This document shows, in pieces, positions 8 through 16,633 of a DNA stretch of 64,000 bases (position 1 is its first letter; the number at the start of each line of letters is the position of its first letter). Source of the stretch: Actinopolyspora biskrensis (lineage in GTDB: Bacteria > Actinomycetota > Actinomycetes > Mycobacteriales > Pseudonocardiaceae); assembly GCF_013408175.1 (NCBI RefSeq), contig NZ_JACBYW010000004.1, positions 71,583 to 135,582 on the forward strand. The letters are read 5' to 3'. The notes beneath the pieces are model-generated. The model saw nothing but the letters and a program-made list of their open reading frames with translations, searched no databases and was not told the origin of the DNA. The position numbers and the translations under genes were made by a program.

Positions 8-582
8 GTGCTCCCCGCAGGTGCGGGGATGATCCGGTCCGGCTCAGCAACCTCGCCGGGGAGTGGGGGTGCTCCCCGCAGGTGCGGGGATGATCCCTCC
101 ACGTCCATCAGCAGCCGGTCGCCCTCGACGTGCTCCCCGCAGGTGCGGGGATGATCCGGTCCGGCTCAGCAACCTCGCCGGGGAGTGGGGGTGCTCCCCG
201 CAGGTGCGGGGATGATCCCGCGGCCCACTGCTCGTGCCCCCCGTTCAACATGTGCTCCCCGCAGGTGCGGGGATGATCCGAGCCGGTGGGTCGAAGTTCC
301 CTCGGCCGCTGAGTGCTCCCCGCAGGTGCGGGGATGATCCCGCGCGCCGGTAGGCCGCATCGGGGTCGGCTTCGTGCTCCCCGCAGGTGCGGGGATGATC
401 CGTCTCAGAGCACGGGCAGGAGTGAGACGAGTTCGTGCTCCCCGCAGGTGCGGGGATGATCCTTCCGGCGACTTTGAGCCTGAATCCAGCGCGGAGTGCT
501 CCCCGCAGGTGTGGGGATGAGCCATCTCGGTATCACCGCGCAGGTACGCCTGCCGTGCTCCCCGCTTGTGCAGGGGCGCCCC
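8..582 (+). CRISPR. CRISPR array 1, type I-E (right part; continues off the left edge)
   Basis: Ten repeats of 28 nt start at 8, 69, 130, 191, 252, 313, 374, 435, 496 and 555. Spacers are 33 nt, except the last at 31 nt. Each repeat has a 6-bp stem (CCCCGC/GCGGGG) around the loop AGGT and ends in GATGATCC. The last two repeats are degenerate: 496 has a T in the right stem arm and GAGCC at the end, and 555 is strongly mutated. Decay at the right end marks the trailer, so the leader lies left of the window and transcription runs on the plus strand. Spacers at 36-68 and 158-190 are identical, and bases 1-7 match the end of the spacer at 97-129, so two repeat-spacer units (122 bp) are tandemly duplicated. 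Confidence 0.98.
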
Positions 583-773: not shown

Positions 774-3626
774 TTGGAAGAGCTGGAACTGAGCAGGTCG
801 GCTCGTGCGGTGTGGGCGAAGTCGACCAATGGAGAAGGGGACTGGCTGCCGCTGTGGCGGCACATGGACGATGCGGCCGATGTCGCGGCCTGGCTGTTCG
901 ACCACTGGTTGGCGTCCAGTGTGGTCCGGTTGCTGGCGGCGGAGTTCGGTGGTGATGTGGTCGCCGCTCGTTGCGCGGTGATGTTTCTGGCCGGTGCGCA
1001 CGATGTCGGCAAGGCGACACCGGCCTTCGCGGTGCAGGACACGGGACTCGCGCAGCGGATGCGCGAGTTGGGGCTGTACATGCCGACGGAGAAGCGGGAC
1101 CTTCCCGACCGGAATCTCGCCCACCACACGGTCACCGGGCACCACCTGCTGATCGGATGGCTCGTCGACAAGGGGTGGCGCAAGAGCTCCGCGAGGACGT
1201 GGGGCATCGTGCTGGGCAGCCACCACGGTGTTCCGCTCGACTCCGATTCCGAGAACACGCCGACGTTTTTTCCGTGCCTCTACGGCACTGGAACCTGGGA
1301 GACGGTCCAGCGGGAGCTGCTCGAGCGCGTGGCGGTCCGTTCCGGAGCTGCCGAACGGCTCGACCAGTGGAGGGAGCTCAAGCTCTCGGCGGCGTTCCAG
1401 GTGCTGGTCACCGGCCTGGTGATCGTCTCGGACTGGATCGCCAGCAACGAGGACCTGCTGCCGTTCCTGAGCGGTGAGCTGCCGGAGGTTCACGAGGAGC
1501 CCCGACGTGTCTCGCGGGCGTTGGAGGAGTTGCGGCTACCGGGGGCGTGGCGTCCGTCCGGTGGACCGGACAGCGTGGCGGAGCTGTTCCGCACGCGGTT
1601 TCAGCTTCCCGACGATGCCCAGCCGCGCCCGGTGCAGCACGCTGCCTGCGAGCTCGCTCGAACCGCCTCCGAGCCCGGGCTGATCATCGTCGAGGCCCCG
1701 ATGGGGGAGGGCAAGACCGAGGCGGCGCTCGCGGCCTCGGAGATCATGGCGGCGCGCTGGGGGCTGGGAGGACTGCTCGTCGCGCTGCCGACCCAGGCCA
1801 CCAGTGACGCCATGTTCGACCGCGTGGTCGACTGGCTGGATGCGATGGGAGCCGAAGACCAGCAGGTCGGCGGCGCTGTCACCCTCAGCCACGGCAAGGC
1901 CAGGTTCAACCGGCTGTTCCAGGGGCTGGTCCGCCAGGGGAGGCGTCCCTCCCAGGTCGGCAGCGACGAGGAGCGGCACCGCACCTCACACGCGGTCGTG
2001 GCGCACTCCTGGCTGTCGGGCCGCAAGAAGTCCCAGCTGGCCAACTTCATGGTCGGCACCATCGACCAGTTGTTGTTCGCAGGTCTGAAGTCGCGGCATC
2101 TGATGCTGCGCCACCTGGGGCTGGCCGGGAAGGTGGTCGTCCTCGACGAGGTTCACGCCTACGACGTCTACATGAACTCGTACCTGACCAAGGTGCTGAC
2201 CTGGCTGGGTGCCTATCGGGTTCCGGTGCTCGCGTTGTCGGCCACCCTGCCCGCCGACCGGCGTCGTGCCCTGCTGGAGGCCTACCAGCAAGGCCGCGAG
2301 TACGGGTCGGGTGGCGCGAGCGGTCAGGAACCGGCGGCGATACCGGACGAGGTGGACGGTGATCCCGGGTATCCGCTGCTCAGCTGGAGTGACGGAAACC
2401 GGGTCGATACGAAGCACGTCGGACCGTCGGGGAGGCGCACCGAGGTAGCGCTCGACTCCCTCGGTGGGGGTGTCGACGAGGATCTCGACGCGCTGGTTTC
2501 GTTGCTGCGGGACTCGCTGTCCGACGGGGGTTGTGCCGTCGTCGTTCGGAACACGGTCGGCCGGGTGCTGGAGACGGCCAGGCGGTTGGAGCGGGAGTTT
2601 CCCGGCGAGATCACGGTGGCCCATTCCCGGTTCATCACGGCTGACCGGATGCGCAAGGACAGCGAGCTGCTCGACCGGTTCGGTGCTCCGGACAGGGCCG
2701 TACGGCGCCCCCAGCGGCACATCGTCGTCGCCTCGCAGGTGATCGAGCAGTCCCTCGACGTCGATTTCGACCTGCTGGTCACCGATCTCGCTCCGGTCGA
2801 CCTCGTGCTGCAGCGGATGGGGCGACTGCACCGGCATCAGCGCGGTGTCGAGCAGCGCGACCGCCCGGCGAAGCTGCGTTCGGCGCGCGCCTACCTCGCC
2901 GGTGTGGATCTCACGCAGGGGCCGCCGGCTCTCGAGGAAGCAGCCGCCCGCCACATCTACGGCACGTACTGGTTGCTCCGCTCTGCAGCGGTGCTCCAGC
3001 CGCGTCTCGGTGGCGAGGTCGTGCTTCCGGAGGACATCGCCACCCTCGTGCAGCGCGCCTACGGTCCCGACCAGGTCGAGCCCGCCGACTGGCAGGAAGT
3101 CGTCTCCGATGCCTGGAAAAAGTGGCAGGAGTCCTCGGAAGAACGCGAGTGCAGGGCTCGTGATTTTCAGGTCGCGGCGCCGACCAAGCCCGGCAAGGCC
3201 ATCATCGGGTGGATCTCGGCCAACGTGGGCGAAGCCGACGACGGTTCGCAGGGGCAGGGGCAGGTCCGCGACGGTGCGCCCAGCCTCGAGGTGATCCTGC
3301 TCCAGCACGACGAGACCGGGAACTGGTTCACCCCCGAGTGGTTGTCACAAGGAACCGGGAAACTCCCTGTGCCCCGGGAGGAGACTCCCGCCGACGACCT
3401 CGCACAGGTCATGGCCTCGTGCTCGCTGCGCCTGCCGCTGGCGTTCAGCAACGCCGAGGCCGAAGAGGAACTCTGGCAGGCCACTCCCGTGGCATGGGAG
3501 GACTCCCCGCTCATCTACCGCCTGCCCGTCCTGTTGGTCGACCAGCACGGCTGGGCACGCATCGCCGACCGACAGATCCGCTACACCCCCGACACGGGGC
3601 TGGAGGTCTACGACAGTGCCAACTGA
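774..3626 (+). CDS. cas3: CRISPR-associated nuclease-helicase Cas3 (type I-E)
   Basis: Degrades target DNA after recruitment by Cascade. The 950-residue protein has an N-terminal HD nuclease domain, with His76-Asp77 in GAHDVGK, His117-His118 and His150-His151. The superfamily 2 helicase follows, with Walker A around Lys314 (PMGEGKT), a DEVH box at 458-461 and SATLP just after it. The full set of motifs suggests an active enzyme. An in-frame TAG sits directly before the TTG at 774, which is preceded by the Shine-Dalgarno-like GGATGGGG, so TTG is the only sensible start. It is the first gene of the cas operon. The 190 bp between array 1 and this gene should hold the operon promoter, but I cannot assign boxes with confidence. 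Confidence 0.97.
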   Translation: MEELELSRSARAVWAKSTNGEGDWLPLWRHMDDAADVAAWLFDHWLASSVVRLLAAEFGGDVVAARCAVMFLAGAHDVGKATPAFAVQDTGLAQRMRELGLYMPTEKRDLPDRNLAHHTVTGHHLLIGWLVDKGWRKSSARTWGIVLGSHHGVPLDSDSENTPTFFPCLYGTGTWETVQRELLERVAVRSGAAERLDQWRELKLSAAFQVLVTGLVIVSDWIASNEDLLPFLSGELPEVHEEPRRVSRALEELRLPGAWRPSGGPDSVAELFRTRFQLPDDAQPRPVQHAACELARTASEPGLIIVEAPMGEGKTEAALAASEIMAARWGLGGLLVALPTQATSDAMFDRVVDWLDAMGAEDQQVGGAVTLSHGKARFNRLFQGLVRQGRRPSQVGSDEERHRTSHAVVAHSWLSGRKKSQLANFMVGTIDQLLFAGLKSRHLMLRHLGLAGKVVVLDEVHAYDVYMNSYLTKVLTWLGAYRVPVLALSATLPADRRRALLEAYQQGREYGSGGASGQEPAAIPDEVDGDPGYPLLSWSDGNRVDTKHVGPSGRRTEVALDSLGGGVDEDLDALVSLLRDSLSDGGCAVVVRNTVGRVLETARRLEREFPGEITVAHSRFITADRMRKDSELLDRFGAPDRAVRRPQRHIVVASQVIEQSLDVDFDLLVTDLAPVDLVLQRMGRLHRHQRGVEQRDRPAKLRSARAYLAGVDLTQGPPALEEAAARHIYGTYWLLRSAAVLQPRLGGEVVLPEDIATLVQRAYGPDQVEPADWQEVVSDAWKKWQESSEERECRARDFQVAAPTKPGKAIIGWISANVGEADDGSQGQGQVRDGAPSLEVILLQHDETGNWFTPEWLSQGTGKLPVPREETPADDLAQVMASCSLRLPLAFSNAEAEEELWQATPVAWEDSPLIYRLPVLLVDQHGWARIADRQIRYTPDTGLEVYDSAN

Positions 3627-5262
3627 CACAGGATTCAACCTGCTCGACGAGCCGTGGATCACCGTTCTCGGTTCGGATGGTTGTGAGCGGCAGGTCTCGA
3701 TCCTCGACGCCTTCGAGCAGGCTCCGCACCTCGGGATGATCGACGGGGAGGTTCCCACCCAGGGCTTCGCGATCACACGACTGCTGCTGGCCTTCCTGCA
3801 CCGCGCGATCAACGGTCCGCGGGACCAGGACGAGTGGGAGGAGCTCTGGCAAGCCGACGAACTGCCGCTGGAGCGAATCCACGACTACGCCCAGCGGGTG
3901 CGGCACCGCTTCGACCTGTTCGACACCGAAGCCCCGTTCTTCCAGGTGGCATCGCTGCACACTGCGAAGAACGAGGTCTCGGGGCTGGAGAAGATCGTGG
4001 CGGACGTGCCTAACGGGGAGCCGTACTTCACCACCCGGTCAGCGGCCAGTCTGCGGCGCATCGACGCGGCCGAGGCCGCCCGCTGGCTCGTGCACGCCCA
4101 CGCCTTCGACCCTTCCGGGATCAAGTCCGGTGCCGTGGGGGACCCGAAGGTCAAAGGTGGCCGGGGGTATCCGATCGGCACCGGCTGGGCGGGCCAGCTC
4201 GGCGGTCTGCTGCCGCAGGGCGCGAACCTGCGGGAGACGCTGCTGCTCAACCTCGTCTCCCGGGATCTCGAGACATTCGTCCGCATCGGAGGGCCGGACG
4301 ACATGCCGCCGTGGGAGCGCGATCCGGACGGTCCGGAACACCAGGACGATCGACCGCCTCGCGGGGCGATCGACCTGTACACGTGGCAGACCCGCCGGGT
4401 CCGGCTGGCCGGTGACCGCGACGGTGTCACCGGGGTGCTGCTGGCCAACGGCGACAAGATCCAGCCGCAGAACCGCCAAACCCTCGATCCGCACACCGCC
4501 TGGCGCTACAGCGAGCCCCAGTCCAAGAAGTTCAAGAAGATCGTCCACATGCCGCAGACGCACGACCCCAACCGGTCGGTGTGGCGCGGAATCGCGGCCA
4601 TGCTGCCCTCGATCTCCGGACGTCGAAGCGGCAACGGCGATTCCCAGCCGTACCTGGCCCCCGGTGTGCTGCAGTGGCTCGGCGACCTGACCTCCGAAGG
4701 CAAACTTCCGGAGACGTACGTACCCCGCGTTCGGGTGATGGGGGTGGAGTACGGCCCTCAGAGCGCCACCTACAGCGAGATCATCGACGACGTCCTGCCG
4801 CTGTCGGTGGTGCTGCTGCGCCAGGACCGCCCCGCAGCGGGGAAGCAGGCCACGGAAGCGGTTTCCGATGCCGAGAAGGCCGGGAAGGCGATCTGGAGCT
4901 TCGCCGAGAACATCGCCCGGGCCGCCGGGGCGGAACCCAAGTCCGGTGTGGGCGACCGGGCACGCGAGCAGCTCTACGCGGCTCTCGAAACGTCCTACCG
5001 CTCCTGGCTGGCCGGGTTCGGACCGAACACGGACCTGTCCGAGGCCCGCGCCGAGTGGCAGCGAACCGTCGAGCTTGCCACCACTCCGATCGTCGACGAA
5101 CTGATCGAGGGGGCTTCTCCGGCGGCGTGGCGCGGGCGAACCATCCAGAACCGCCTGGTGAACGTCGCGCTGGCGGACGTGTGGTTCAAAGCCGCCCTGC
5201 GGAAGGCGCTTCCCCTGGTACGCACCGATTCGAAGAACACAACACTGGAGGAAGCGGTATGA
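3616..5262 (+). CDS. casA: Cascade large subunit Cse1 (Cas8e/CasA)
   Basis: The 548-residue large subunit of the type I-E Cascade complex, which recognises the PAM and recruits Cas3. The N-terminus reads FNLLDEPWI, the usual opening of this family, and the length is normal (about 500-560). The GTG start at 3616 lies 11 nt inside the end of cas3, so the two genes are translationally coupled. A second, short, inverted copy of this start region (about 55 bp, covering the cas3 end and the first codons of cse1) occurs at 11706-11760. Confidence 0.95.
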   Translation: MPTDTGFNLLDEPWITVLGSDGCERQVSILDAFEQAPHLGMIDGEVPTQGFAITRLLLAFLHRAINGPRDQDEWEELWQADELPLERIHDYAQRVRHRFDLFDTEAPFFQVASLHTAKNEVSGLEKIVADVPNGEPYFTTRSAASLRRIDAAEAARWLVHAHAFDPSGIKSGAVGDPKVKGGRGYPIGTGWAGQLGGLLPQGANLRETLLLNLVSRDLETFVRIGGPDDMPPWERDPDGPEHQDDRPPRGAIDLYTWQTRRVRLAGDRDGVTGVLLANGDKIQPQNRQTLDPHTAWRYSEPQSKKFKKIVHMPQTHDPNRSVWRGIAAMLPSISGRRSGNGDSQPYLAPGVLQWLGDLTSEGKLPETYVPRVRVMGVEYGPQSATYSEIIDDVLPLSVVLLRQDRPAAGKQATEAVSDAEKAGKAIWSFAENIARAAGAEPKSGVGDRAREQLYAALETSYRSWLAGFGPNTDLSEARAEWQRTVELATTPIVDELIEGASPAAWRGRTIQNRLVNVALADVWFKAALRKALPLVRTDSKNTTLEEAV

Positions 5263-5918
5263 CCTCAACGGGGGCCGCGCCCAAAGCCGGTCCACATCGG
5301 AAGCTGGGCGTCCTCGGAAACGCGCTGGACCGGCGGTTTTCCCGACTGCAGCAGGAGTACCTGCGGGAGGAGTCGGCGGCGAAGGCCGACCTCGCCCGGC
5401 TGCGCCGCGGCCTGGGGAAACCGGCGGGCAGCGTTCCGGAGATCTGGGAGCTGACCATCGGCTCGGTTCCGGACTCGCTGAGCTGGGACCGGGACGAGCC
5501 GAGCAGGGCCGAGCAGGCGTCCCACGCCGCCTTCACCCTGTTCGCGCTGCACCAGCAGTCCCTGAACGTGGCGGTGCACGAGCCCGGAACCTCGTTCGGG
5601 CACGCCGTGGGGAAACTGCGCTCCAAATCCACCCGCAGCCCGGAAGCCGTGACCAACAGGTTCATGGCGGTCTCCACGGCCGAGTCCGTCGACGAGGCGC
5701 TCGTCCACATGCGGGGGCTCATCACGCAGCTCCGCTCGGAGCACGAGGGCTTCGACTACGCCCGGCTGGCCGATGACCTCACCGGTCTGCTGACTCCCGC
5801 CCGAGCCGCGCGAGTACGGCTCGCCTGGGGGAGGGACTTCTACCGCACGAGCGCCGACACCGCCGAAAGCGGTGACAGCGGTGAAAACGACTCCACCGAC
5901 GAGAACACCGAGGAGTGA
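5259..5918 (+). CDS. casB: Cascade small subunit Cse2 (Cas11/CasB)
   Basis: A 219-residue protein in the Cse2 position of a type I-E operon. In the family two copies line the belly of Cascade and stabilise the crRNA and target strand. The ATG at 5259 overlaps the cse1 stop as ATGA. The helical, charged sequence includes an Arg-rich N-terminal third (residues about 20-60, with LDRRF and LRRGL segments), as expected for a nucleic-acid-binding small subunit. An acidic tail rich in Ser, Glu and Asp fills the last 20 residues. Confidence 0.92.
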   Translation: MTSTGAAPKAGPHRKLGVLGNALDRRFSRLQQEYLREESAAKADLARLRRGLGKPAGSVPEIWELTIGSVPDSLSWDRDEPSRAEQASHAAFTLFALHQQSLNVAVHEPGTSFGHAVGKLRSKSTRSPEAVTNRFMAVSTAESVDEALVHMRGLITQLRSEHEGFDYARLADDLTGLLTPARAARVRLAWGRDFYRTSADTAESGDSGENDSTDENTEE

Positions 5919-5923
5919 GACCC

Positions 5924-7045
5924 ATGAGTCGAACCATGATCGACATCCACGTGCTGCAGACCGTCCCCCCGAGCAACCTCAACCGCGACGACACGGGAAG
6001 CCCGAAAACGGCCGTCTACGGCGGAGTGCGCCGGTCGCGGGTCTCCAGCCAGGCGTGGAAGCGCGCTACGCGGGTGGACTTCGAGTCCCACCTCGACAGC
6101 TCCGAGCTGGGCACGCGCACCAAGCGCGTCGTGGAGTGGCTGGCCGAGGAGATCACCGCACAGGCACCTGAACTCGAGAGCAGGGCGACGGAGCTGGCTA
6201 CCGAGACCATCAAGGCCGTCGGCATCGAGGTCAAAGCACCGGAGAAGGAAACGAGCCCGCAGTCCGGTTACCTGCTCTTCCTCAGCCGGCGGCAGATCCA
6301 GAACCTCGCCGGGGCCGCGATCGAGGCGGCCGAGGCCGACGACGTGAATAAGGCGCTCAAGGAAGCCAAGGTCAAGGACCTGGCCGACCGGGAGCACTCC
6401 GTCGACATCGCGTTGTTCGGCCGCATGGTGGCCGACCAGGCCGACATCAACGTCGACGCCGCGGCCCAGGTGGCGCACGCGATCAGCGTGCACCCGGTGG
6501 AGACCGAGTTCGACTACTACACCGCTGTGGACGACCGGAACCAGGACCACGAGACCGGTGCAGGAATGATCGGCACCGTCGAGTTCAACTCCTCCACCCT
6601 CTACCGCTACGCCACGCTCGACGTGAACCGACTCGCCGACAACCTCGGGGATGCGACGGCGGTCCGTCGAGCGGTGGAGGCCTTCCTCGAATCGTTCGTG
6701 CGGTCGATGCCCTCCGGCAAGCAGAACACCTTCGCCAACCGGACGCTGCCGGAGGCGGTGGTGGTGCTGGCACGCGAGTCCCAGCCCATCAATCTCGTGG
6801 GGGCCTTCGAGAACCCGGTGTGGGAATCGGTTCACTCCGGTCGGGTCAAGCGCGCGGCCGACGCGTTGCTCGAGGAGGCCCAGGAGATCGAGCGGGCCTA
6901 CGGTGAGCAGCCGATCGACAGCTGGGTCACCCGGGTCGGAGAGGACACGGCAAGCCTCGACGAGCTGGGCTCGAACGTGTCGCTGAACGAGATGGTGACG
7001 CAGCTCGGCGAGCTGGTCGGAACGCGTGCCGAGGAGCGCTCATGA
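5924..7045 (+). CDS. casC: Cascade backbone subunit Cas7e (Cse4/CasC)
   Basis: The six-copy backbone of Cascade that wraps the crRNA. The 373-residue protein starts IDIHVLQ and carries PPSNLNRDDTG and SRVSSQAWKRATR, both typical of Cas7e N-termini. ATG 5924 is chosen because AGGAG lies about 8 nt upstream. A second ATG at 5936 is less well placed, and a GTG at 5915 overlaps the cse2 stop. The stop overlaps the next start as ATGA. Confidence 0.95.
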   Translation: MSRTMIDIHVLQTVPPSNLNRDDTGSPKTAVYGGVRRSRVSSQAWKRATRVDFESHLDSSELGTRTKRVVEWLAEEITAQAPELESRATELATETIKAVGIEVKAPEKETSPQSGYLLFLSRRQIQNLAGAAIEAAEADDVNKALKEAKVKDLADREHSVDIALFGRMVADQADINVDAAAQVAHAISVHPVETEFDYYTAVDDRNQDHETGAGMIGTVEFNSSTLYRYATLDVNRLADNLGDATAVRRAVEAFLESFVRSMPSGKQNTFANRTLPEAVVVLARESQPINLVGAFENPVWESVHSGRVKRAADALLEEAQEIERAYGEQPIDSWVTRVGEDTASLDELGSNVSLNEMVTQLGELVGTRAEERS

Positions 7046-7767
7046 CCGTGGTCGCGCTCAGACTGGCCGGGCCGCTGCAGGCGTGGGGATCCCGCAGCCG
7101 GTTCGTGCGCCGGGAGACGGAGAAAGCCCCCACCAAGAGCGGGGTGATCGGCATGGTCGCGGCCGCGAAGGGCATCCGGCGTGCCGATCCGCTGGAGGGG
7201 TTGCCGGAACTGCGGTTCGGGGTACGCGTCGACCAGCCCGGGCAGCTGGTTCGGGACTTCCAGACCGCGCAACGCCCCAAGAAGGAGAAGGACGGCACCA
7301 CCAGCTGGTCGTCCCTGCCGCTGTCGCAGCGCTACTACGTCTCCGACGCCGTGTTCCTGGCCGTGCTCGAAGGTGATCGCGAGCTCGTCGAGGGCGTCGA
7401 CGAGGCTGTCCGCAGCCCGGAGTTCCCCCTGTACCTCGGTCGGCGCTCCTGCCCGCCGGCAGGTCCGGTGGCACTGGGAGTCTTCGACAGCGGGCTCGAG
7501 GAGGCGCTGGCGACCCTGCCCTGGATGGCCGGGACGCGCCGGCAACAGCGGCACCGCGCCAACACCGTGTGCCTGACCACCGTTCGGGACGCGCTCCCGG
7601 ACGAGTCCGGTGGCGAGCTGATCCAGGACACACCGGTCAGTTTCGATCCGAACCGACGGCAGCACGCCTGGCGCACCGTCACGCGCGGGACCGTCGAGAT
7701 CGACAACCCGCACGGCACCGCCGAGAAGGGTGCGGAGCACGACCCCATGGCGAGTCTGGGAGGTTGA
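7042..7767 (+). CDS. casD: Cascade subunit Cas5e (CasD)
   Basis: Caps the 5' handle of the crRNA in Cascade. The 241-residue protein begins with the RAMP-type strand VALRLAGPLQAWGSRSRF and the following arginine-rich, pathogenicity-independent Cas5 signature (RRETEKAPTKSGVIG). The length matches the family (about 220-250). ATG 7042 overlaps the cas7e stop (ATGA), and the gene ends one base before the cas6e start, so the set is read as one polycistron. Confidence 0.95.
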   Translation: MTVVALRLAGPLQAWGSRSRFVRRETEKAPTKSGVIGMVAAAKGIRRADPLEGLPELRFGVRVDQPGQLVRDFQTAQRPKKEKDGTTSWSSLPLSQRYYVSDAVFLAVLEGDRELVEGVDEAVRSPEFPLYLGRRSCPPAGPVALGVFDSGLEEALATLPWMAGTRRQQRHRANTVCLTTVRDALPDESGGELIQDTPVSFDPNRRQHAWRTVTRGTVEIDNPHGTAEKGAEHDPMASLGG

Positions 7768-7768
7768 G

Positions 7769-8455
7769 GTGTTTCTGACGAAGATGCCGCTCAATCCGAG
7801 ACGGCGCGGCGCGCGGAAGTTGCTGGGCTCACCGCAGGCACTGCACGCCGCCGTGCAGGCGGGATTCGCCGACCCCAGCCCGACCGAGGAGGGACGAGTC
7901 CTGTGGCGGTTGGACACCTACGGCCAGCACCGGGTCGTGCTCTACACCGCCACTCCGGAGAAACCCGACTTCACCCATGTCGTCGAACAGGTGGGATGGC
8001 CGACCACCGAGGCCTGGCAGACCCGTGACTACGACGACCTGCTGGACTCGCTGCGTCCGGGGCAGCACTGGCAGTTCCGGCTCACGGCGAACCCGGTCCG
8101 CTCCGGGCGCCGGGAGGGCTGGGAAACCACGAAACCTCTCGGACACGTCACGGTCAAGCAGCAGGAGCAGTGGTTGCTCGACCGGGCCTCGCGGCTGGGA
8201 TTCCGGCTGCTCACCACCGAGGGCGACACCGAGGGGGACGCGGAACCCGAGCTCGCGGTCGTCGACAGGAGCACCCGTCGTTTCGAGCGGAAGGGCAACC
8301 AGGTCACCGTCTCCACGGCCACCTTCGAGGGGCACCTGGAGGTCACCGACACCGCGGCGCTGCGCCACTCCCTCACCTTCGGGATAGGTCGGGCCAAGGC
8401 GTACGGCTGCGGCCTGCTCACCCTGGCTCCGCCGTCGAAGAAGGGGACGGCATGA
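7769..8455 (+). CDS. casE: CRISPR RNA endonuclease Cas6e (CasE/Cse3)
   Basis: Cuts pre-crRNA at the base of the repeat hairpin and stays on the 3' end in Cascade. The 228-residue protein opens FLTKMPLNP, the standard first ferredoxin strand. It has the family catalytic histidine at residue 26 (QALHAAV), although position 23, a tyrosine in the Thermus enzyme, is glutamine here. A glycine-rich loop GIGRAKAYGCG lies near the C-terminus. GTG 7769 is preferred over upstream in-frame starts because it gives this canonical N-terminus and lies one base after the cas5e stop. The same enzyme must process repeats with two different loop sequences. Confidence 0.95.
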   Translation: MFLTKMPLNPRRRGARKLLGSPQALHAAVQAGFADPSPTEEGRVLWRLDTYGQHRVVLYTATPEKPDFTHVVEQVGWPTTEAWQTRDYDDLLDSLRPGQHWQFRLTANPVRSGRREGWETTKPLGHVTVKQQEQWLLDRASRLGFRLLTTEGDTEGDAEPELAVVDRSTRRFERKGNQVTVSTATFEGHLEVTDTAALRHSLTFGIGRAKAYGCGLLTLAPPSKKGTA

Positions 8456-9402
8456 CCTCGCTGGGGAAACGACCGACTCAACCGCGGGAACTCGTTCGAG
8501 CGGTGGACAGAGTCTCGTTTCTCCACCTGGAGCGGTGCGTCGTCAACCGCGACAGCAACGCGATCACCGCGACCGATGAGCGGGGCACGGTACACGTGCC
8601 GGCCGCGTCGGTGGGGGTGTTGCTGCTGGGGCCGGGAACGACGATCACGCACCAGGCGATCGCGCTCATGTCGGACAGCGGATCGACCGTGGTGTGGGTC
8701 GGTGAGCAGGGTGTGCGCTACTACGCGCACGGTGTTTCACCGGCCCGCACCTCCCGTCTGGTGGAAGCGCAGGCCGAAGCGGTCTCGAACCGCAGATCAC
8801 GGCTGCGCGTGGCCCGTGCGATGTACGAGATGCGCTTCCCCGCGGAGGACGTCTCGAGCCTGACGATGCAGCAGCTCCGGGGCAGGGAAGGGGCACGAGT
8901 TCGCCGGATCTACCGGAAGCATTCCGAGCGCACCGGGGTTCCGTGGTCGAAACGCGACTACGACGTGGACGACTGGGAAGCGGGTGATCCGGTCAACCAG
9001 GCTCTCTCCGCGGCGAACTCAGCGCTGTACGGAGTGGTGCACTCGGTGATCGTCGCGCTCGGGTGCTCACCGGCGCTGGGCTTCGTCCACACCGGGCACC
9101 ACCGGTCGTTCGTCTACGACATCGCCGACCTGTACAAGACGGAGCTGACGATCCCGGTGGCTTTCGACGTGGCGGCCGAGACGGCCGTGGACGTGGGAGC
9201 GGAGACCCGCCGATTTCTCCGCGATTCCCTGCACGGCGGCAAGCTGTTGGAACGATGTGCACGGGACATCCAGCGGTTGCTGCTCAACCCCGACGAGAAC
9301 GAGGAACCACCCGAGGGGTACCTCGATTTCGACGTCATCTCGCTGTGGGACGAGCACGGGAACGCCGTACAAGGGGGAGTATCCTACGGAGGTGCGTCAT
9401 AA
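8452..9402 (+). CDS. cas1: CRISPR integrase Cas1 (type I-E)
   Basis: The catalytic subunit of the spacer-acquisition complex. The 316-residue protein has the expected metal-binding acidic and histidine residues in RGREGARVRRIY, LGFVHTGHH and the YDIADLYK segment, so it looks active. The ATG at 8452 overlaps the cas6e stop (ATGA). The gene ends in TAA at 9400-9402, inside the start region of cas2. At this junction related operons usually show an ATGA overlap, whereas here it reads ATAA. Confidence 0.96.
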   Translation: MTSLGKRPTQPRELVRAVDRVSFLHLERCVVNRDSNAITATDERGTVHVPAASVGVLLLGPGTTITHQAIALMSDSGSTVVWVGEQGVRYYAHGVSPARTSRLVEAQAEAVSNRRSRLRVARAMYEMRFPAEDVSSLTMQQLRGREGARVRRIYRKHSERTGVPWSKRDYDVDDWEAGDPVNQALSAANSALYGVVHSVIVALGCSPALGFVHTGHHRSFVYDIADLYKTELTIPVAFDVAAETAVDVGAETRRFLRDSLHGGKLLERCARDIQRLLLNPDENEEPPEGYLDFDVISLWDEHGNAVQGGVSYGGAS

Positions 9403-9818
9403 CCGTCGTCGTACTGACCGCTGTACCTCCCGGTTTGCGGGGCCATCTGACCCGGTGGCTGCTGGAGATCAGCCCCGGGGTGTTCGTCGGGCACGTCTCG
9501 GCACGCGTCCGCGAGGAGCTGTGGGAACGCATCCTCGAGTTCGCGGCGGACGGTCGGGCACTCATGGTCTACTCGACCCAGGGCGAGCAGCGCTTGTCCT
9601 TCAAGGTGCACGGGCACGATTGGACTCCGGTCGATCACGACGGGCTCATGCTGATGCGTCGGCAAACCGTCCCGGACTACGTACAGGCCGACCACGAGGT
9701 CGTGGACGGGGCCGTGGCACAGCAGAAGAACCCCTCCCGCTCCGAGCCTTCGTCGACGGTCAACTCCGAGACCGTGTGGAAGCGCCGGGAGAAACGCAGG
9801 AAGTTCAAAAGGAAGTAG
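9399..9818 (+). CDS. cas2: CRISPR adaptation protein Cas2 (type I-E), apparently starting at ATA
   Basis: The structural partner of Cas1 in spacer integration. The reading frame TVVVLTAVPPGLRGHLTRW is textbook Cas2e and continues intact for 139 codons. About 40 extra basic residues (ending KRREKRRKFKRK) extend beyond the usual core. No ATG, GTG or TTG lies at the expected start; the codon there is ATA (9399-9401), six bases after a perfect GGAGG. The nearest upstream in-frame ATG (about 9255) would add roughly 48 residues that are only a shadow of cas1. A G-to-A change at 9401 in an ancestral ATGA overlap would explain both this ATA and the cas1 TAA stop. Confidence 0.9.
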   Translation: MTVVVLTAVPPGLRGHLTRWLLEISPGVFVGHVSARVREELWERILEFAADGRALMVYSTQGEQRLSFKVHGHDWTPVDHDGLMLMRRQTVPDYVQADHEVVDGAVAQQKNPSRSEPSSTVNSETVWKRREKRRKFKRK

Positions 9819-9896: not shown

Positions 9897-11022
9897 GTGC
9901 TCCCCGCGCCTGCGGGGATGATCCGATGTGCACCGGTCCGACGTGCTTCCGCAGCGGGTGCTCCCCGCGCCTGCGGGGATGATCCCATGCCGTGCTGAAG
10001 TAGTTCGGCGTCGATGCGGTGCTCCCCGCGCCTGCGGGGATGATCCTTCACAATGGGTCATAGACCATTGTCTCCGGTAGTGCTCCCCGCGCCTGCGGGG
10101 ATGATCCGCTCCGAGGTACGCTCGACATGCCACCCCGGTAGTGCTCCCCGCGCCTGCGGGGATGATCCGGACCGGCTGGACAAGCTGGCGGATGAGATCG
10201 GGTGCTCCCCGCGCCTGCGGGGATGATCCCGGGGCCACCGTGGACCGGCACGTGCTCGACAAGTGCTCCCCGCGCCTGCGGGGATGATCCTGTGTACTCT
10301 ATCCTGCTTCGGGCTTCGCCTGTGTGCTCCCCGCGCCTGCGGGGATGATCCGCCTCCGGATAGGTCCCTGTAGCGCTTTGCGCCGTGCTCCCCGCGCCTG
10401 CGGGGATGATCCGCTGACGAAGTTCGAGCGTGGGGACCTGACTGCGTGCTCCCCGCGCCTGCGGGGATGATCCCAATAGGCGGTGTGGCAGGCGTTGTAC
10501 TCCTCCGTGCTCCCCGCGCCTGCGGGGATGATCCTCGATCCTTGACCTTCGAGACTCCAAGCACTCCGTGCTCCCCGCGCCTGCGGGGATGATCCGTTCG
10601 GCCGGGTCGATGCCGAGCATGTCGAGCAGTGCTCCCCGCGCCTGCGGGGATGATCCCAGCTACTCCGGGGCCGACTGTTGCCGAGTGGTGTGCTCCCCGC
10701 GCCTGCGGGGATGATCCGCAGCTTCCCCGCGATCTCCATCACCCCGTGGTGGTGCTCCCCGCGCCTGCGGGGATGATCCTTCCCCCGAATTCAGCTGTCG
10801 CTGTGTCGCCCGGTGCTCCCCGCGCCTGCGGGGATGATCCGGCAGCGCGGATCAAGCGCCAGAAGGATCAGGCGTGCTCCCCGCGCCTGCGGGGATGATC
10901 CCGCGAGCGGGACGAACTGAGGCAACAGCTCGACGTGCTCCCCGCAGGCGCGGGGATGATTCGACTTCATCGACCTGGTAAAAGTCGTCATCAGGGTGCT
11001 CCTCGTAGCTGCGGGGTGATCC
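9897..11022 (+). CRISPR. CRISPR array 2, type I-E (19 repeats, 18 spacers)
   Basis: Repeats of 28 nt begin at 9897 and recur every 61 bp to 10690, then at 10752, 10813, 10874, 10935 and 10996. The spacer before 10752 is 34 nt and the others 33. The repeat has the same CCCCGC/GCGGGG stem as array 1 but the loop GCCT instead of AGGT. The last two copies are degenerate: 10935 has the loop AGGC and ends GATTC, and 10996 has lost a base and several stem positions. Decay at the right end and the leader at the left agree with plus-strand transcription. All spacers differ from one another. Confidence 0.99.
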
Positions 11023-11845: not shown

Positions 11846-12020
11846 ACTGTCCTTATCGGTCTCTTGGCCGTGGGCATGCTTCTCGTATGAGCATGTTTCA
11901 CCTCGGATCTCGTGACCCACGCAGTGACCCGAACAGGGGTTAACCGGTGTGGTCACAGTCCACCACCGGGACCGGCTGTGTGGCTGTCGTTGCTGGTCGT
12001 GGTGGGTGTTTGTGCAGCTC

Positions 12021-12070
12021 AAGCGCCTTGTAAGCGGAAGGTCAGGGGTTCGAGTCCCCTCAGCGGCTCC
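12021..12070 (+). other. 3' fragment of a tRNA-Thr(TGT) gene, likely attachment-site scar
   Basis: The stretch contains the anticodon loop CTTGTAA (anticodon TGT), a variable region, a complete T arm (AGGGGTTCGAGTCCCCT) and the 3' acceptor strand CAGCGGC followed by TCC. The anticodon stem pairs at only three positions, and the 5' acceptor strand GCCGCTG is absent upstream, so this is not a functional tRNA. Integrases commonly use the 3' half of tRNA genes as attachment sites. The fragment therefore probably marks the right edge of a mobile island carrying the CRISPR debris. Confidence 0.75.
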
Positions 12071-12392: not shown

Positions 12393-15125
12393 ATGGCGGA
12401 CAAATCGCTCGGAGGGGGGACGAGCGCCGTCGCCGCCTCCGCGCACGCCGCTTGTGCGCGCTTCCGTGGAACCGACCCGCTCGTGGTCGGACGCACGCGC
12501 AGACAGCTCGCGGCGGACATCGGTTTCCCGGACGAGTCGGGCCGCATCCCCCACGCCCGGTGGATGCGGGCGATGACCTTCGAGCACCTGGTGCGGGAGG
12601 AGAGGTTCGCCGCCGAAGTGGCCACGACCACAGTGGGCAGACTCGGGCTGAACCGTCCCGACGGGATCGTGACGTCCGACGCGCACGCGGACGTGGGCAG
12701 GACGGCCGGTCTGCTCGCGGACGCACATGCCGGAGCCGTGTCGAACGGCTCGGTCACGCTGATCCACGGGGCCGCGTTGCCCTTCGTCGGCTTCGAGGAC
12801 CAGGACGCCACCGAGGTCAAGCCCGATTTCGTCGTCATCGCTCCCGAAGCTGACCGGAATGGTGGATCCTGGCTGGTCGTCGGTGACGCCAAGGACTACG
12901 AACGGGTGAGGTCCCGGATCGAGGACACCAGATTGCTGAAAGGCTTTCTGCAAGTGGCCCTGGGAGCGGAATCCGCCGAATCCTGGTCATGCGTGCCCAC
13001 CGGCATGTCGGTCCACTCCCACGGCGTGCTGGCCGTCCCCCGCAACGCCTTCCTGCAGCCCGAGGCCCTGGTGGAATCGCTCGACGACCACCGGGCCGAG
13101 GTGCGGATGCGCGTGGCGGAGCGGCGGCGTGAGGCCGAGCGGCCGCCATCGGTCGAACCGGAAGACCTCTCGAAGTACGTCGCTCATCTGCGGGCGACGT
13201 TCGACCCGGCCACGTGCACCACTTGCACCCTGTTCTCCTACTGCCGGAACGAGCTCAGGACGTCGACCGACCCGACCGACCTGCTCGTCGAGCTGGGAAT
13301 ACCGAGCGACACGAGACCCCACGTCGTGGGTCTGGTGGACGGAACGGGCGCGCTCGGCAAGGCGCCGGCATCGGTGGCCGCCAACGTGACGGCGACCCTG
13401 GAGGGAATCGGGCAGTCCACCGGCCAACGACGCATCGACCAGGCGGGACGCGCGGGCACCGTCAACGTCGTGCTCGCCAAATCGGACTCCGCGGCGCTCG
13501 GTGTTCACGGGATCGCCTCGCAGCGCGTCACCGCCGCGGGCCGTGAGTCGTGGCGGGTCACCGTCTTCGACGATCCGCAGTCCGCGCGCTGCCGCCGCGA
13601 GGTGATGCGCCTGCTCGGGCGGGAACTGTCCGAGGCGATGACCGAAGGGCGCGCGGCCGACGAGGACTCGCCGGGCCCTGTTCACCTCGTCGTTCCGGAC
13701 CAGCCGACGGCCGACGTCCTCGTCTCGATCGCCGACAACCTGGCCGGCATCGAGCTCAGCAGGCTGCGCTGGGAACGGGACGCGCGAATGGGGCGTGAGC
13801 CCTTGACGTTCGACGGAGAACCGGCCGAGATCCCCTCCCCGCTGCAGGAGCCCGAGCGTACCGCCGTCTCGTTCCTGCTGGAGGAGGATCGCGCCAGGGC
13901 GCTCACTCTCCGGTCCCCGACCGTCGATCTCCGGGAATCGCTCGCGCGGCACGTGGTGGCCGGGGGTCCCCCGGTCGCCTCCTACCGCCTGGACTACCTG
14001 TTGGCCTGGGCCGAGTCCATGACCGACGGCCCCGTGGAACCACGCAGGCTGGAGGACGAGATCGAAGCCGCCTTCCACACCCCCGGTGCCCGGCTGACGA
14101 GCCGGACCTCCGATGTCCTCCACGAGGCCCTGACCGCACCGGAACCCCGGAGGCACGGTGTCGGGACGCGGCCTTCGGAGGCGAGCGGACACGCGGCGCT
14201 GGTGACCGAGGAGCTCGACTACAAGCGCGGGGTCGTCGAACGTGCCCTGAACGCGTTGGAGGCCGTTCCGGACTCACGGCTGCGCGAGGTGCACCGGGAG
14301 ATCGAGGGCGATGCCCAGGCGGTCTGGCGGCGGCGGTTGTCGTTGCGCGCTTCCGACCTGGTGCGGTTCGGCCGAACACACCGTTACTGGCGCAACGCGC
14401 TAGTGTCCGTCATCGAAAGTGACGACAAGTGCCGGAACCAGCTCCTGGCGCTGACGAATCCGCAGACCGCCGACGACCTCGCCGTCGACGCCGGCATGAG
14501 AGAGGTCGCCGTCGCGACCGTGGTGTCGGCCCGCCCACTGGTGCTGGACGTGGACTCCCGCCGGATCGGCGCGGGGACCAGGATCGTGTCGCTGCGGGTC
14601 AACGGCGACATGTGCGTCGAACATCCGAACGTCGGCCTCACGGTCCAGAAGAGCAGTTTCAAGTTCTCGGGGATGTCGATCGGGCCGCTGAGCGGTGTCG
14701 GCGGCGAAATGCCTCGTCGCTTCGAGTGGGAACCGGAGAACGTTCCCGAGCTGTCGGTCGGGGACCGGCTGGTCGTCGCCGATTTCGCGTGGTTCTCGAC
14801 GAACAAGGGCAACGCGTTCCTCAACGTCGCCAGACCGCGGGTCGACGAGGTCTCGGCGCCGAAACCGACGTGCGAGCCGGGCTCCTACGCCGAGGATCCC
14901 GAGAGTCACGAGCGCTGCTGCCGTCCGCACGAGGCCGCCGAGGCCGAGCGGTCCGACCGGATCGCCGAACGCCGCGCTCGCGGCGAGCTCAACCCGGAGG
15001 TGTGGCCGCCGGTCGTGGACTCCGACGCGTTCGAGGTGGCTCCGGCGGGCGCACCCGTCGCCGACGTGACGGCAGGACCGATGACGAGTCCGCCTGACGA
15101 CATGACGATGGACGACCTGGAGTGA
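12393..15125 (+). CDS. Large PD-(D/E)XK nuclease with Dna2/AddB/Cas4-type Fe-S cysteines
   Basis: A 910-residue protein with a RecB-like nuclease fold in its first third: Asp145 in KPDFVVI, then Asp165-Ala-Lys167 in VVGDAKDY. Cysteines at 275, 278 and 284 (C-x2-C-x5-C) plus an early one at 21 reproduce the iron-sulfur pattern of AddB, Dna2 and Cas4. The middle (about 300-650) is helical and unrecognised. Residues about 680-830 look strand-rich, with a region like the beta-barrel that precedes the helicase core in Dna2-type proteins. ATG 12393 has GGGGG upstream; a GTG at 12363 is possible. Its stop overlaps the next gene. Inferred role: nucleic-acid cleavage, probably in phage or plasmid defence. 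Confidence 0.8.
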   Translation: MADKSLGGGTSAVAASAHAACARFRGTDPLVVGRTRRQLAADIGFPDESGRIPHARWMRAMTFEHLVREERFAAEVATTTVGRLGLNRPDGIVTSDAHADVGRTAGLLADAHAGAVSNGSVTLIHGAALPFVGFEDQDATEVKPDFVVIAPEADRNGGSWLVVGDAKDYERVRSRIEDTRLLKGFLQVALGAESAESWSCVPTGMSVHSHGVLAVPRNAFLQPEALVESLDDHRAEVRMRVAERRREAERPPSVEPEDLSKYVAHLRATFDPATCTTCTLFSYCRNELRTSTDPTDLLVELGIPSDTRPHVVGLVDGTGALGKAPASVAANVTATLEGIGQSTGQRRIDQAGRAGTVNVVLAKSDSAALGVHGIASQRVTAAGRESWRVTVFDDPQSARCRREVMRLLGRELSEAMTEGRAADEDSPGPVHLVVPDQPTADVLVSIADNLAGIELSRLRWERDARMGREPLTFDGEPAEIPSPLQEPERTAVSFLLEEDRARALTLRSPTVDLRESLARHVVAGGPPVASYRLDYLLAWAESMTDGPVEPRRLEDEIEAAFHTPGARLTSRTSDVLHEALTAPEPRRHGVGTRPSEASGHAALVTEELDYKRGVVERALNALEAVPDSRLREVHREIEGDAQAVWRRRLSLRASDLVRFGRTHRYWRNALVSVIESDDKCRNQLLALTNPQTADDLAVDAGMREVAVATVVSARPLVLDVDSRRIGAGTRIVSLRVNGDMCVEHPNVGLTVQKSSFKFSGMSIGPLSGVGGEMPRRFEWEPENVPELSVGDRLVVADFAWFSTNKGNAFLNVARPRVDEVSAPKPTCEPGSYAEDPESHERCCRPHEAAEAERSDRIAERRARGELNPEVWPPVVDSDAFEVAPAGAPVADVTAGPMTSPPDDMTMDDLE

Positions 15126-16633
15126 TGGTGACGGTCGAGTTCTCCCAGCCGGAGCCGCGGGACGCCGACCGCGTCCACCACGACCGGGCGGCGGCGGGCA
15201 ACGCCGCGGTGGCCGACGAGGCGGTCGGGGTGCTGCGCGGCGCGCTGTCCGGTATCGCGCCGCTGGACCGGCTCCTGCTCAGGGCCGCGGCCGGTGCCGG
15301 GAAGTCCCACGTCCTGAAGAAGCTGGTGGCCGATGCCGTGGAGCACCCCGAGTGCTCGCGAGTGGCGATCATCGCCTTCACGAACAAGCAGATACACCCG
15401 CTCGCGGCTTCGCTGGGGCGGTTGCTCGGGCGGGAACGAGTGTGTCTGTCCGTCGGCAAGGCTCGGCACGAGGAGGTACCCGAGGAGGCACGGTCGAACT
15501 CGACCGTGGTCACCACCGCCTCGGCCGTTCCGCCCGAGTGCGAGGTGATCGTCGCGACCTCCCACAAGCTCGGCGCCATCGGCGAACTCGACCGGTTGGC
15601 CGAACAGCTCGGTGCCGGCCACAACGGTGAGTCCACGTTCGACGCGCTGTTCGTCGACGAGGCGTGGCAGCTCCCGCACCACCTGTTCGACAGGGTCGTC
15701 GAGGCGGCGCCGATCACGGTCGGAGTCGGTGACGTCGGACAGCTTCCCCCGCTGGAGGTGGGCGCGAACCCGTGGCGGGGCGATCCGGGTTTCAACCCGT
15801 ACCGCGCGTGGCCGACCGACTTCGACGGTGACGAACGGACCTGGTCCGTCGAGCTGCCCGCGGTCTGGCGGCCCGCGGCGGGGCACCTGGACCTGTGGCG
15901 GGCCTTCTACCCCGAGTGGCGCGAACTCGACTGCGTGGCGGCGCCGGGGGACAGGGCACTGGTCGCCGAGGGGCTTTCCGGGGAGACCGCCGCGATCTGG
16001 AACCAGGTCGGTACCGGTGTGCCGACGCTGCTCGAGGTCGAGGGGTTGTCGGAGCCCGAGAGCGCGGACGTCGACCTGCCGCTGATGGGGACGGTCGAGT
16101 CCCTGCTCGACGAGCTGCTGTCCTCGGGCTTCGCGCTCGAGCACGCGGAGTACGACGACAAGGGGTCCCCGACGGGCGAAACGAGCGCTTCGCGTCCCGG
16201 TGACGACTCCGGCGATCCGCTGGTGGTGATCCTGGCGACGCGCAACCAGGCCGTGGACGACGCGGCCGACGTCGCCGAGCGGTTGCGAGCGAAGTACTCG
16301 CTGGCCGAGACCGAAGTCGTGGCTTCCACGGTCGACTCCTGGCAGGGCCAGACGAACCGCATCACGGTCGCGATTCACCCGTTGAGCGGTGCCACGCAAC
16401 TCGACGAGTTCAACTCGGCTTTCGGCAGGCTGGCCGTGACCTGCACGCGCGCCACCCACGGGCTTCTGATGGTCACCCGTCCCGGGATCGATCGGCTTCT
16501 CGGCGAGGCCCCCGCTCGGCCGGGAACCCCGTTCGGGGAGCCGGGCAACCGGCAGTTGCCGCGGCAGACCCACCAGCGCATCCTCGACACGTTCGCCAGG
16601 GGCAAGCTCACGGCAGGGGACGAGCACCGGTAG
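15125..16633 (+). CDS. Superfamily 1 (Upf1/Dna2-like) helicase, partner of the nuclease
   Basis: A 502-residue protein with all SF1 motifs: Walker A with Lys60 (AAGAGKS), motif II DEAW at 178-181, motif III GDVGQLPP, a motif-V-like VDSWQGQ and motif VI VTCTRATHG. The two RecA domains are complete but the protein is short, with no separate accessory domain. The ATG at 15125 shares its A with the nuclease stop; a GTG at 15122 gives a 4-nt overlap. Either way translation is coupled. Together the two genes could form a split Dna2-like nuclease-helicase. Neighbours are CRISPR debris on the left and unrelated metabolic genes on the right. Confidence 0.88.
   Translation: MVTVEFSQPEPRDADRVHHDRAAAGNAAVADEAVGVLRGALSGIAPLDRLLLRAAAGAGKSHVLKKLVADAVEHPECSRVAIIAFTNKQIHPLAASLGRLLGRERVCLSVGKARHEEVPEEARSNSTVVTTASAVPPECEVIVATSHKLGAIGELDRLAEQLGAGHNGESTFDALFVDEAWQLPHHLFDRVVEAAPITVGVGDVGQLPPLEVGANPWRGDPGFNPYRAWPTDFDGDERTWSVELPAVWRPAAGHLDLWRAFYPEWRELDCVAAPGDRALVAEGLSGETAAIWNQVGTGVPTLLEVEGLSEPESADVDLPLMGTVESLLDELLSSGFALEHAEYDDKGSPTGETSASRPGDDSGDPLVVILATRNQAVDDAADVAERLRAKYSLAETEVVASTVDSWQGQTNRITVAIHPLSGATQLDEFNSAFGRLAVTCTRATHGLLMVTRPGIDRLLGEAPARPGTPFGEPGNRQLPRQTHQRILDTFARGKLTAGDEHR

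Follow-up and report, generated by a model that had tools for sequence, protein, structure and literature searches.

The closest described precedent for the gene pair analyzed here is Bad, a single-chain DNA2-like helicase-nuclease of Geobacillus stearothermophilus (PMC7430649). Bad is a 5′-to-3′ motor whose unwinding is unmasked when its nuclease is inactivated; the motif III mutant D150A unwinds alone, whereas the wild type degrades as well. In Geobacilli, the bad gene adjoins a type III-related methyltransferase, and the authors regard a new class of restriction enzyme as plausible; a second class in Mycobacteria and Rhodococcus is mentioned there without detail. Our subject is a pair of genes, P0001 and P0002, at positions 12393 to 16633 of a 64,000-nucleotide stretch of the Actinopolyspora biskrensis genome (the window, which is the whole stretch analyzed, G000:C4:71583-135582 of a 4.95-Mb genome in 15 contigs). 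With moderate confidence, we read the 2 proteins as a two-subunit DNA2-like nuclease-helicase that serves as an effector of restriction-modification (RM) systems in relatives and that is probably a non-nuclease machine in most species of the window's genus.

Judged by described features and not by sequence comparison, the pair resembles Bad in having an iron-sulfur (Fe-S) RecB-family nuclease first, a large central region without known homology, and a superfamily 1B (SF1B) helicase last, and in its sporadic occurrence and its motif III Asp as the predicted catalytic acid. A type III-related methyltransferase, the neighbor of bad, lies beside the pair in 17 + 2 of 43 places outside the genus and in neither the window nor the genus. 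Unlike Bad, which is one chain, it is encoded by 2 genes in all 52 loci, and it has type ISP partners, orphan copies, and natural motif III mutants. Because the single-chain feature is absent and the likeness is one of described features, we class the pair among DNA2-like enzymes, as a variant in two chains, and not as a member of Bad; the second class in Mycobacteria and Rhodococcus could include its relatives. The first-pass annotation of this DNA knew no named system with such a make-up, which agrees with the lack of any PADLOC match and of any Pfam match over the cut-off for P0001 but passes over Bad as a close single-chain precedent. The split pair was not described in the literature searched by architecture or RM context, although papers beyond those searched may describe it, and the available passages of PMC3702460, PMC10853773, and PMC11090510 hold no description of it.

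Architecture of the nuclease and helicase subunits

The 2 genes and the parts of the first protein are as follows:

12393..15125, + strand: P0001, 910 aa, Fe-S PD-(D/E)XK nuclease at the N-terminus
15122..16633, + strand: P0002, 502-503 aa, SF1B helicase of the Upf1/DNA2 branch
P0001 residues 1-290 (approximate): Fe-S PD-(D/E)XK nuclease domain
P0001 residues 350-520: central domain, putatively RNase H-like
P0001 residues 520-700: helical region
P0001 residues 705-815: strand-rich region, putative barrel
P0001 residues 827-846: C-terminal Cys/His cluster

Both reading frames stand as first annotated, the 910-aa frame with C21, D145, D165-A-K167, C275, C278, and C284, to which we add Q187, and the overlapping helicase frame with its superfamily 1 (SF1) motifs. 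The helicase has 503 aa from a GTG start, with a 4-nt overlap, or 502 aa from an ATG one codon on, with a 1-nt overlap; the P0001 start at 12393 matches the consensus of aligned relatives. Among 50 aligned P0001 rows, including the window, the 4 cysteines and K167 are present in every one, D145 in 49, and D165 in 44, and P0001 is a Cas4/MGME1-like PD-(D/E)XK protein with 4 invariant cysteines. The C-terminal residues C827, H839, C842, C843, and H846 are likewise present in 50 of 50 rows and may bind zinc. In P0002, the motif residues G58, G60, K61, D179, E180, Q207, Q408, and R443 are kept in 48 of 48 rows. These alignments (A1 and A2) exclude a deleted remnant (L059) and a frameshifted copy (L069) and do not contain the 2 plasmid copies described below; A2 also lacks L031 and L058, where the helicase is incomplete, and L030 was excluded also from A4. 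The first-pass annotation had named a lack of co-occurrence of the 2 genes elsewhere as a result that would speak against its proposal. The genes are neighbors on the same strand in the window and in all 51 relative loci, counting the remnant, the frameshifted copy, and the 2 loci cut by contig ends (L031 and L058).

AlphaFold models, folded from 38 of the 50 P0001 rows and 35 of the 48 P0002 rows, reached a predicted local distance difference test score (pLDDT) of 85.7 for P0001 and 85.4 for P0002. Foldseek matched the P0002 model to IGHMBP2 (7.5e-15), Sen1 (3.1e-13), Upf1 (4.4e-13), and DNA2 (5eax, 7.3e-13), and on the strength of these matches we assign it to SF1B, a class for which 5′-to-3′ polarity is expected. 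P0001 has no Pfam or NCBIfam match over the cut-off, no PADLOC match, and no PDB sequence match; its best PDB fold matches are MGME1 (5zyv, E 0.011, probability 1.00) and Cas4 (8d3l, E 0.028, probability 0.99). Beyond the nuclease, the order of secondary-structure elements in the model, the sole basis of this call, suggests an RNase H-like fold at residues 356-465 (b-b-b-a-b-a), in a central domain whose invariant residues include K363, P435, D436, D441, and D448 but show no assignable active site, and the mostly stranded segment at 705-815 is plausibly a DNA2/Upf1-type barrel. Across both genes, the parts thus run in the order nuclease, central domain, barrel, helicase, and the annotated notion of a DNA2 split in two is backed by this domain order and by the predicted structures of both halves. 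We set aside the Foldseek matches of P0001 to hexokinase and Hsp70 folds, whose probability did not exceed 0.08, and one to an Argonaute (E 0.70 over 79 columns). As a separate observation, the predicted structures of 2 uncharacterized giant-virus proteins, Yasminevirus A0A5K0U8I2 and Faunusvirus A0A3G4ZWN9, align with P0001 over 745 columns (E 2.4e-8 and 2.9e-4, template-modeling score about 0.33).

Eukaryotic DNA2 (5eax and 5eaw) shares the Fe-S PD-(D/E)XK nuclease placed before an SF1B helicase, and its fold match to P0002 is the one given above; it differs in being one chain and, according to PMC7430649, in being without the central domain of Bad. It is not among the 50 best PDB fold matches listed for P0001. 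The TM0106 family (TIGR03491) is a RecB-like nuclease with a Cys cluster that, in L077, is fused to an SF1 helicase, which P0002 matches by profile at 2.7e-7. However, TM0106 is a separate gene in the same genome and P0001 matches it only around the Cys cluster (E 0.0099), and with no NCBIfam match over the cut-off, this weak relation does not make P0001 a TM0106 protein. AddAB and AdnAB carry UvrD-type helicase domains; they were rejected as candidates on the grounds that P0001 has no UvrD match, that the P0002 match to UvrD-helicase (4.2e-4) falls below the cut-off, and that P0002 has a Upf1/DNA2-like fold.

Restriction-modification partners outside the genus

The 43 places outside the genus comprise 37 genome-contig loci (38 minus the remnant L059), 4 whole-genome loci (L070-L073), and 2 plasmids. 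Neighboring genes were called by a home-made codon-usage script and clustered, with the family checked on one representative per cluster; the script can miss genes, as it did the Mod of L036, which was recovered by tblastn. An RM system lies within 3 kb of the pair in 28 of these 43 places, namely a type III Mod-Res in 17, a second and different Res-Mod pair in 2 (L045 and L047), and a type ISP enzyme in 9. For the type III group, Mod and Res are downstream of the pair in 16 places, and the 17th, L056, has only the first Mod codons at a contig end; the distance from the helicase stop to the Mod start ranges from −13 to +175 nt. The representative Mod, from L075, matches PADLOC MTase_III at 3.4e-255, and its Res has a ResIII domain. 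The type ISP neighbors, mostly divergent, lie at 4-150 nt in 8 places and at 2.7 kb in L072, and the representative enzyme (L040) has Type_ISP_C, ISP_coupler, and Mrr_cat_2 domains. In the class sample, a strong Mod match (E below 1e-90, a line set after the list had been inspected, with 34 weaker matches uncounted) was found in 6 of 388 genomes, 3 of them with the pair directly upstream; in the remaining 382, the pair occurs anywhere in only 4, our own genome included (Fisher p 7e-5). Type III and type ISP enzymes share the property of cutting only after long-distance communication along DNA (PMC7049714, PMC11142916).

Two other RM-linked helicases invite comparison. The extra helicase-like ATPase of type III N4-methylcytosine (m4C) systems lies directly 5′ of mod, as the helicase of the pair does, but it is an SF2 (superfamily 2) protein without a nuclease motif, and its likeness to P0002 is one of description (PMC8259958). 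UvrD-Cas4 fusions beside type III Mod-Res (PMC5704561) share a Cas4-like nuclease and an SF1 helicase with the pair; they differ in their UvrD-type helicase, in being one chain, and in being encoded by a gene separate from the pair. A gene of a UvrD-PDDEXK cluster (Pfam on L060: UvrD and PDDEXK_1) that lies near the pair in 12 loci, all with RM partners (L032-L037, L045-L047, L054, L057, and L060), fits the UvrD-Cas4 fusion of that paper. Going by family polarity, such loci possibly bring 3′-to-5′ and 5′-to-3′ helicase-nucleases together. At another locus, in an Acidimicrobiia metagenome-assembled genome (L049:16602-22201), 2 adjoining genes of one cluster lie near the pair, the first with GTPase and dynamin-like domains.

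On the reading favored here, P0001 and P0002 would form a two-subunit enzyme. P0002 is predicted to travel 5′ to 3′ on single-stranded DNA, held by P0001 through its barrel and central domain, while the Fe-S nuclease of P0001 is predicted to cleave the strand. For most relatives outside the genus, the pair would be an accessory effector of the long-distance RM systems, type III and type ISP, probably loading on ends or flaps opened by the RM enzymes and degrading the invader before repair is possible.

The same neighborhoods bear on a rather unlikely alternative, in which the pair is a self-sufficient, Hachiman-like sensor of DNA damage or phage whose helicase patrols and whose nuclease is unleashed on aberrant DNA, the RM genes being defense-island company. 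Hachiman HamAB is also a two-gene nuclease-helicase defense complex (PMC12278908), 15 of the 43 places have no type III or ISP neighbor, and the repeated nuclease loss within one genus, described below, would fit relief from toxicity. However, in the 16 places that have both Mod and Res, and in the one at a contig end, the genes keep one order and Mod begins at −13 to +175 nt, a regularity not expected of company alone. PADLOC gave no match for P0001 and no Hachiman model, and P0002 matched GajB, RTasHel, and mad8 weakly (best 4.7e-4). Hachiman, moreover, has a DUF1837 nuclease and an SF2 helicase, whereas P0002 is SF1B by fold.

Distribution of the pair and its place in the genus

The pair is sporadic within Actinomycetota. 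P0001 is present in 10 of 10 genomes of the window's genus, in none of the 27 other family genera, in 0 of 24 further genomes of the order, in 8 of 394 class-sample genomes (including our own and one weak fragment, G357), and in 2 of 396 phylum-sample genomes, one being our own. Scanning genome contigs for P0001 yielded 38 loci in records with actinobacterial titles. P0001 is also carried, with Mod-Res, by 2 Rhodococcus plasmids, typed as conjugative in one case and mobilizable in the other; the Mod and Res of these plasmids are 99% identical to each other. No relative of P0001 was found in phage records and none of the P0001 and P0002 families in viral contigs, by scans that use short patterns first. 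In Nocardia elegans, a remnant of the pair has a large internal deletion (L059:9972-10863).

Within the genus, 9 of 10 genomes allow the pair to be placed on the downstream side of one tRNA-Thr(TGT), at a distance of 145 nt in G001 and more where elements intervene; downstream gene families link the same 9 genomes. In G007, the tRNA-Thr is on another contig and the downstream genes differ, with upstream families shared. Several genus members have other DNA between the tRNA-Thr and the pair, and in G005, the region upstream of the pair (L061:4088-8809) encodes a 1573-aa protein with a sacsin-like N-terminus and an SF2 helicase C-terminus (partial PADLOC TmtA match).

This constancy raises the possibility, which we consider improbable, of a genus-specific enzyme of DNA repair or replication, processing ends or flaps as DNA2 does and unrelated to defense. 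It would account for a pair found in every genus genome, forming one clade in the tree, occupying one place in 9 of 10, and evolving with dN/dS (the ratio of nonsynonymous to synonymous substitution rates) below 1. An enzyme of that kind is hard to square with the complete absence from 27 other family genera and from 24 sampled genomes elsewhere in the order, with travel on plasmids, or with loss of the catalytic acid in 8 of 10 species. The first-pass annotation had named, as a result that would speak against its proposal, a repair pair conserved at one place in all relatives; within the genus, the pair is in 10 of 10 genomes and at that place in 9, but the 27 other family genera have no copy.

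The RM partners are not seen in the genus. The Mod family of the pair's type III neighbors is present in 0 of 10 genus genomes, other Mod types not having been searched genome-wide, and Type_ISP_C (PF18135) is also present in 0 of 10, in searches that covered no RM types besides this Mod and ISP. With Mod, Res, and Type_ISP_C partners not found, membership of the window pair in a type III RM or type ISP system was rejected. The tree built from both proteins (48 rows) groups the genus in a single clade (support 1.00) close to other orphan pairs; the nearest outgroups of genus and orphans together are type III-associated pairs, and we infer that the RM partner was likely lost before the genus arose.

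Loss of the catalytic acids under retained constraint

Outside the genus, D145, D165, and K167 are retained in 41 of 41 aligned rows. Inside it, a catalytic aspartate has been lost in 8 of 10 species: D165G in G001; D165A in G003, G004, G007, and G009; D165V in G006; and D145A in G002 and G008, leaving intact only G000, which is the window's genome, and G005. P144S and Q187R are common to G002, G003, G004, G007, G009, and a piece of G008. The losses amount to 4 events, or to 3 if the weakest tree node (0.13) is wrong. The first protein has changed unevenly. Among columns invariant outside the genus, the 9 genus rows counted (G008 left out) show change in 18 of 68 within the nuclease domain but in 4 of the 87 elsewhere in P0001 (Fisher p 1.3e-4); of the 117 such columns in P0002, 1 is changed. 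For 13 chosen pairs of the 36, dN/dS of P0001 is 0.28-0.43 in the 10 nuclease-dead pairs and 0.34 between the 2 intact copies, and that of P0002 is 0.15-0.35 over all 13.

Ordinary decay, in which the genus pair is on its way out and drift has begun with the catalytic losses, would also produce an excess of change in the nuclease domain, and it could point to the frameshifted G008 copy and to the deleted remnant in Nocardia elegans. We consider it very improbable, for the reading frame is open over its full length in 9 of 10 genus copies, dN/dS is 0.28-0.43 even between nuclease-dead P0001 copies, and of the 117 helicase columns that do not vary outside the genus, its 9 rows preserve 116. Under the reading as a two-subunit nuclease-helicase, the pair would instead have become a vertically inherited orphan in the window's genus, where 8 of 10 species have lost a catalytic acid but selection has gone on acting on the helicase and on the remainder of P0001. 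The nuclease-dead pair probably works as an unwinding or binding machine and not as a nuclease; in the window copy, the nuclease site is intact.

Several results weigh against this reading. The Foldseek E-values of P0001 are weak, and its alignment to solved structures is limited to the nuclease part. The window pair has no RM partner, with no Mod or Res cluster beside it. Outside the genus, the 15 of 43 places without a type III or ISP neighbor in the available DNA (one of them a 3.5-kb contig) have intact nuclease residues, and therefore the pair may work alone; among the 15, a GmrSD-cluster gene (family checked on L057) lies at 24 nt in L043 and at 401 nt in L048, and L042 has a type I HsdR-like gene, so called by size and clustering, at 1.1 kb. 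Of the 6 class genomes with a strong Mod, 3 lack the pair, with no P0002 within 1.5 kb upstream of Mod. Type ISP enzymes are common anyway: 72 of the 388 class genomes have one, as do 13 of the 37 pair-bearing genomes searched outside the genus (that of L045 not among them), and 2 of the 9 adjacent ones, in L055 and L072, seem to be interrupted. How many catalytic losses are counted depends on a tree with weak nodes within the genus (0.13, 0.66, and 0.69). Finally, since orphan pairs outside the genus keep their catalytic acids, the missing RM partner does not suffice to explain why the nuclease was lost, and we have not adopted the idea that one led to the other.

A three-gene cousin

A homolog of P0002 (26%, E 3e-20) is found on 2 Streptomyces plasmids and in Nonomuraea, each time with a nuclease gene of a 379-aa type. 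Two loci were delimited:

L155:3212-7207: three-gene cousin
L156:4906-8915: three-gene cousin

In both, the helicase follows the nuclease, which has the pattern C...PD...EIK...C-C-C and matches P0001 by profile over 250 columns (E 0.0017, probability 15%). A protein of 475-502 aa takes the place of the central and barrel part of P0001, which it matches at an E of 0.11 only. On Streptomyces p1, the 3 cousin genes lie directly before a Wadjet system. Taken with Bad and the present pair, this arrangement suggests a modular family that exists in one, two, or three chains.

The tRNA-Thr element and its CRISPR locus

To the left of the pair, the window contains the following:

12024..12070, + strand: attR scar of 47 nt, an exact copy of the tRNA-Thr(TGT) 3′ end at G000:C4:47832-47878
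774..9818, + strand: type I-E cas operon (cas3, cse1, cse2, cas7, cas5, cas6, cas1, cas2), inside the tRNA-Thr element

The intact tRNA-Thr is at C4:47804-47878 with an integrase (PF00589; L152:1469-3322) beside it, and because its 47-nt 3′ end recurs at window 12024-12070, the 35.8 kb between them (G000:C4:47804-83652, including a run of 97 N) constitute an element that holds the type I-E locus. The annotated tRNA scar is thus a genuine attR, but the tRNA-Leu(CAG) that ARAGORN predicts at 11986-12070 is a chimera of element sequence and the last 47 nt of the native tRNA-Thr(TGT) 3′ end. The type I-E locus was rightly called complete. CRISPR repeats are at 8-575, 9897-10969, and 11761; an identical spacer occurs twice in the array before cas3 (window 8-96 and 130-218), and the 2 arrays differ slightly in repeat (GCAGGTGCGGGG versus GCGCCTGCGGGG). 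The pair starts 322 nt to the right of attR, on the chromosomal side, and being outside the element, it is not part of a CRISPR island. Its annotation as a defense module accordingly draws no support from the CRISPR neighbor, but it does from plasmid carriage and from RM adjacency in relatives.

Implications for the family

The catalytic-acid losses in the genus resemble the laboratory change that exposes the hidden helicase of Bad (PMC7430649). A bolder and more tentative proposal, which we put forward as possible but doubtful, is that the pair represents, in split form, a previously undescribed class of restriction effector joining type III and type ISP systems to a DNA2-type degrading motor and that, after 3 or 4 independent losses, the genus holds a nuclease-dead DNA2 that unwinds 5′ to 3′ and that selection has retained for a new task. 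A two-chain pair beside type III Mod-Res and type ISP enzymes is independent support for the restriction-enzyme idea of the Bad authors. Moreover, the genus offers a natural nuclease-dead series with 2 intact species as controls, in which a DNA2-like motor without its nuclease is testable in bacteria.

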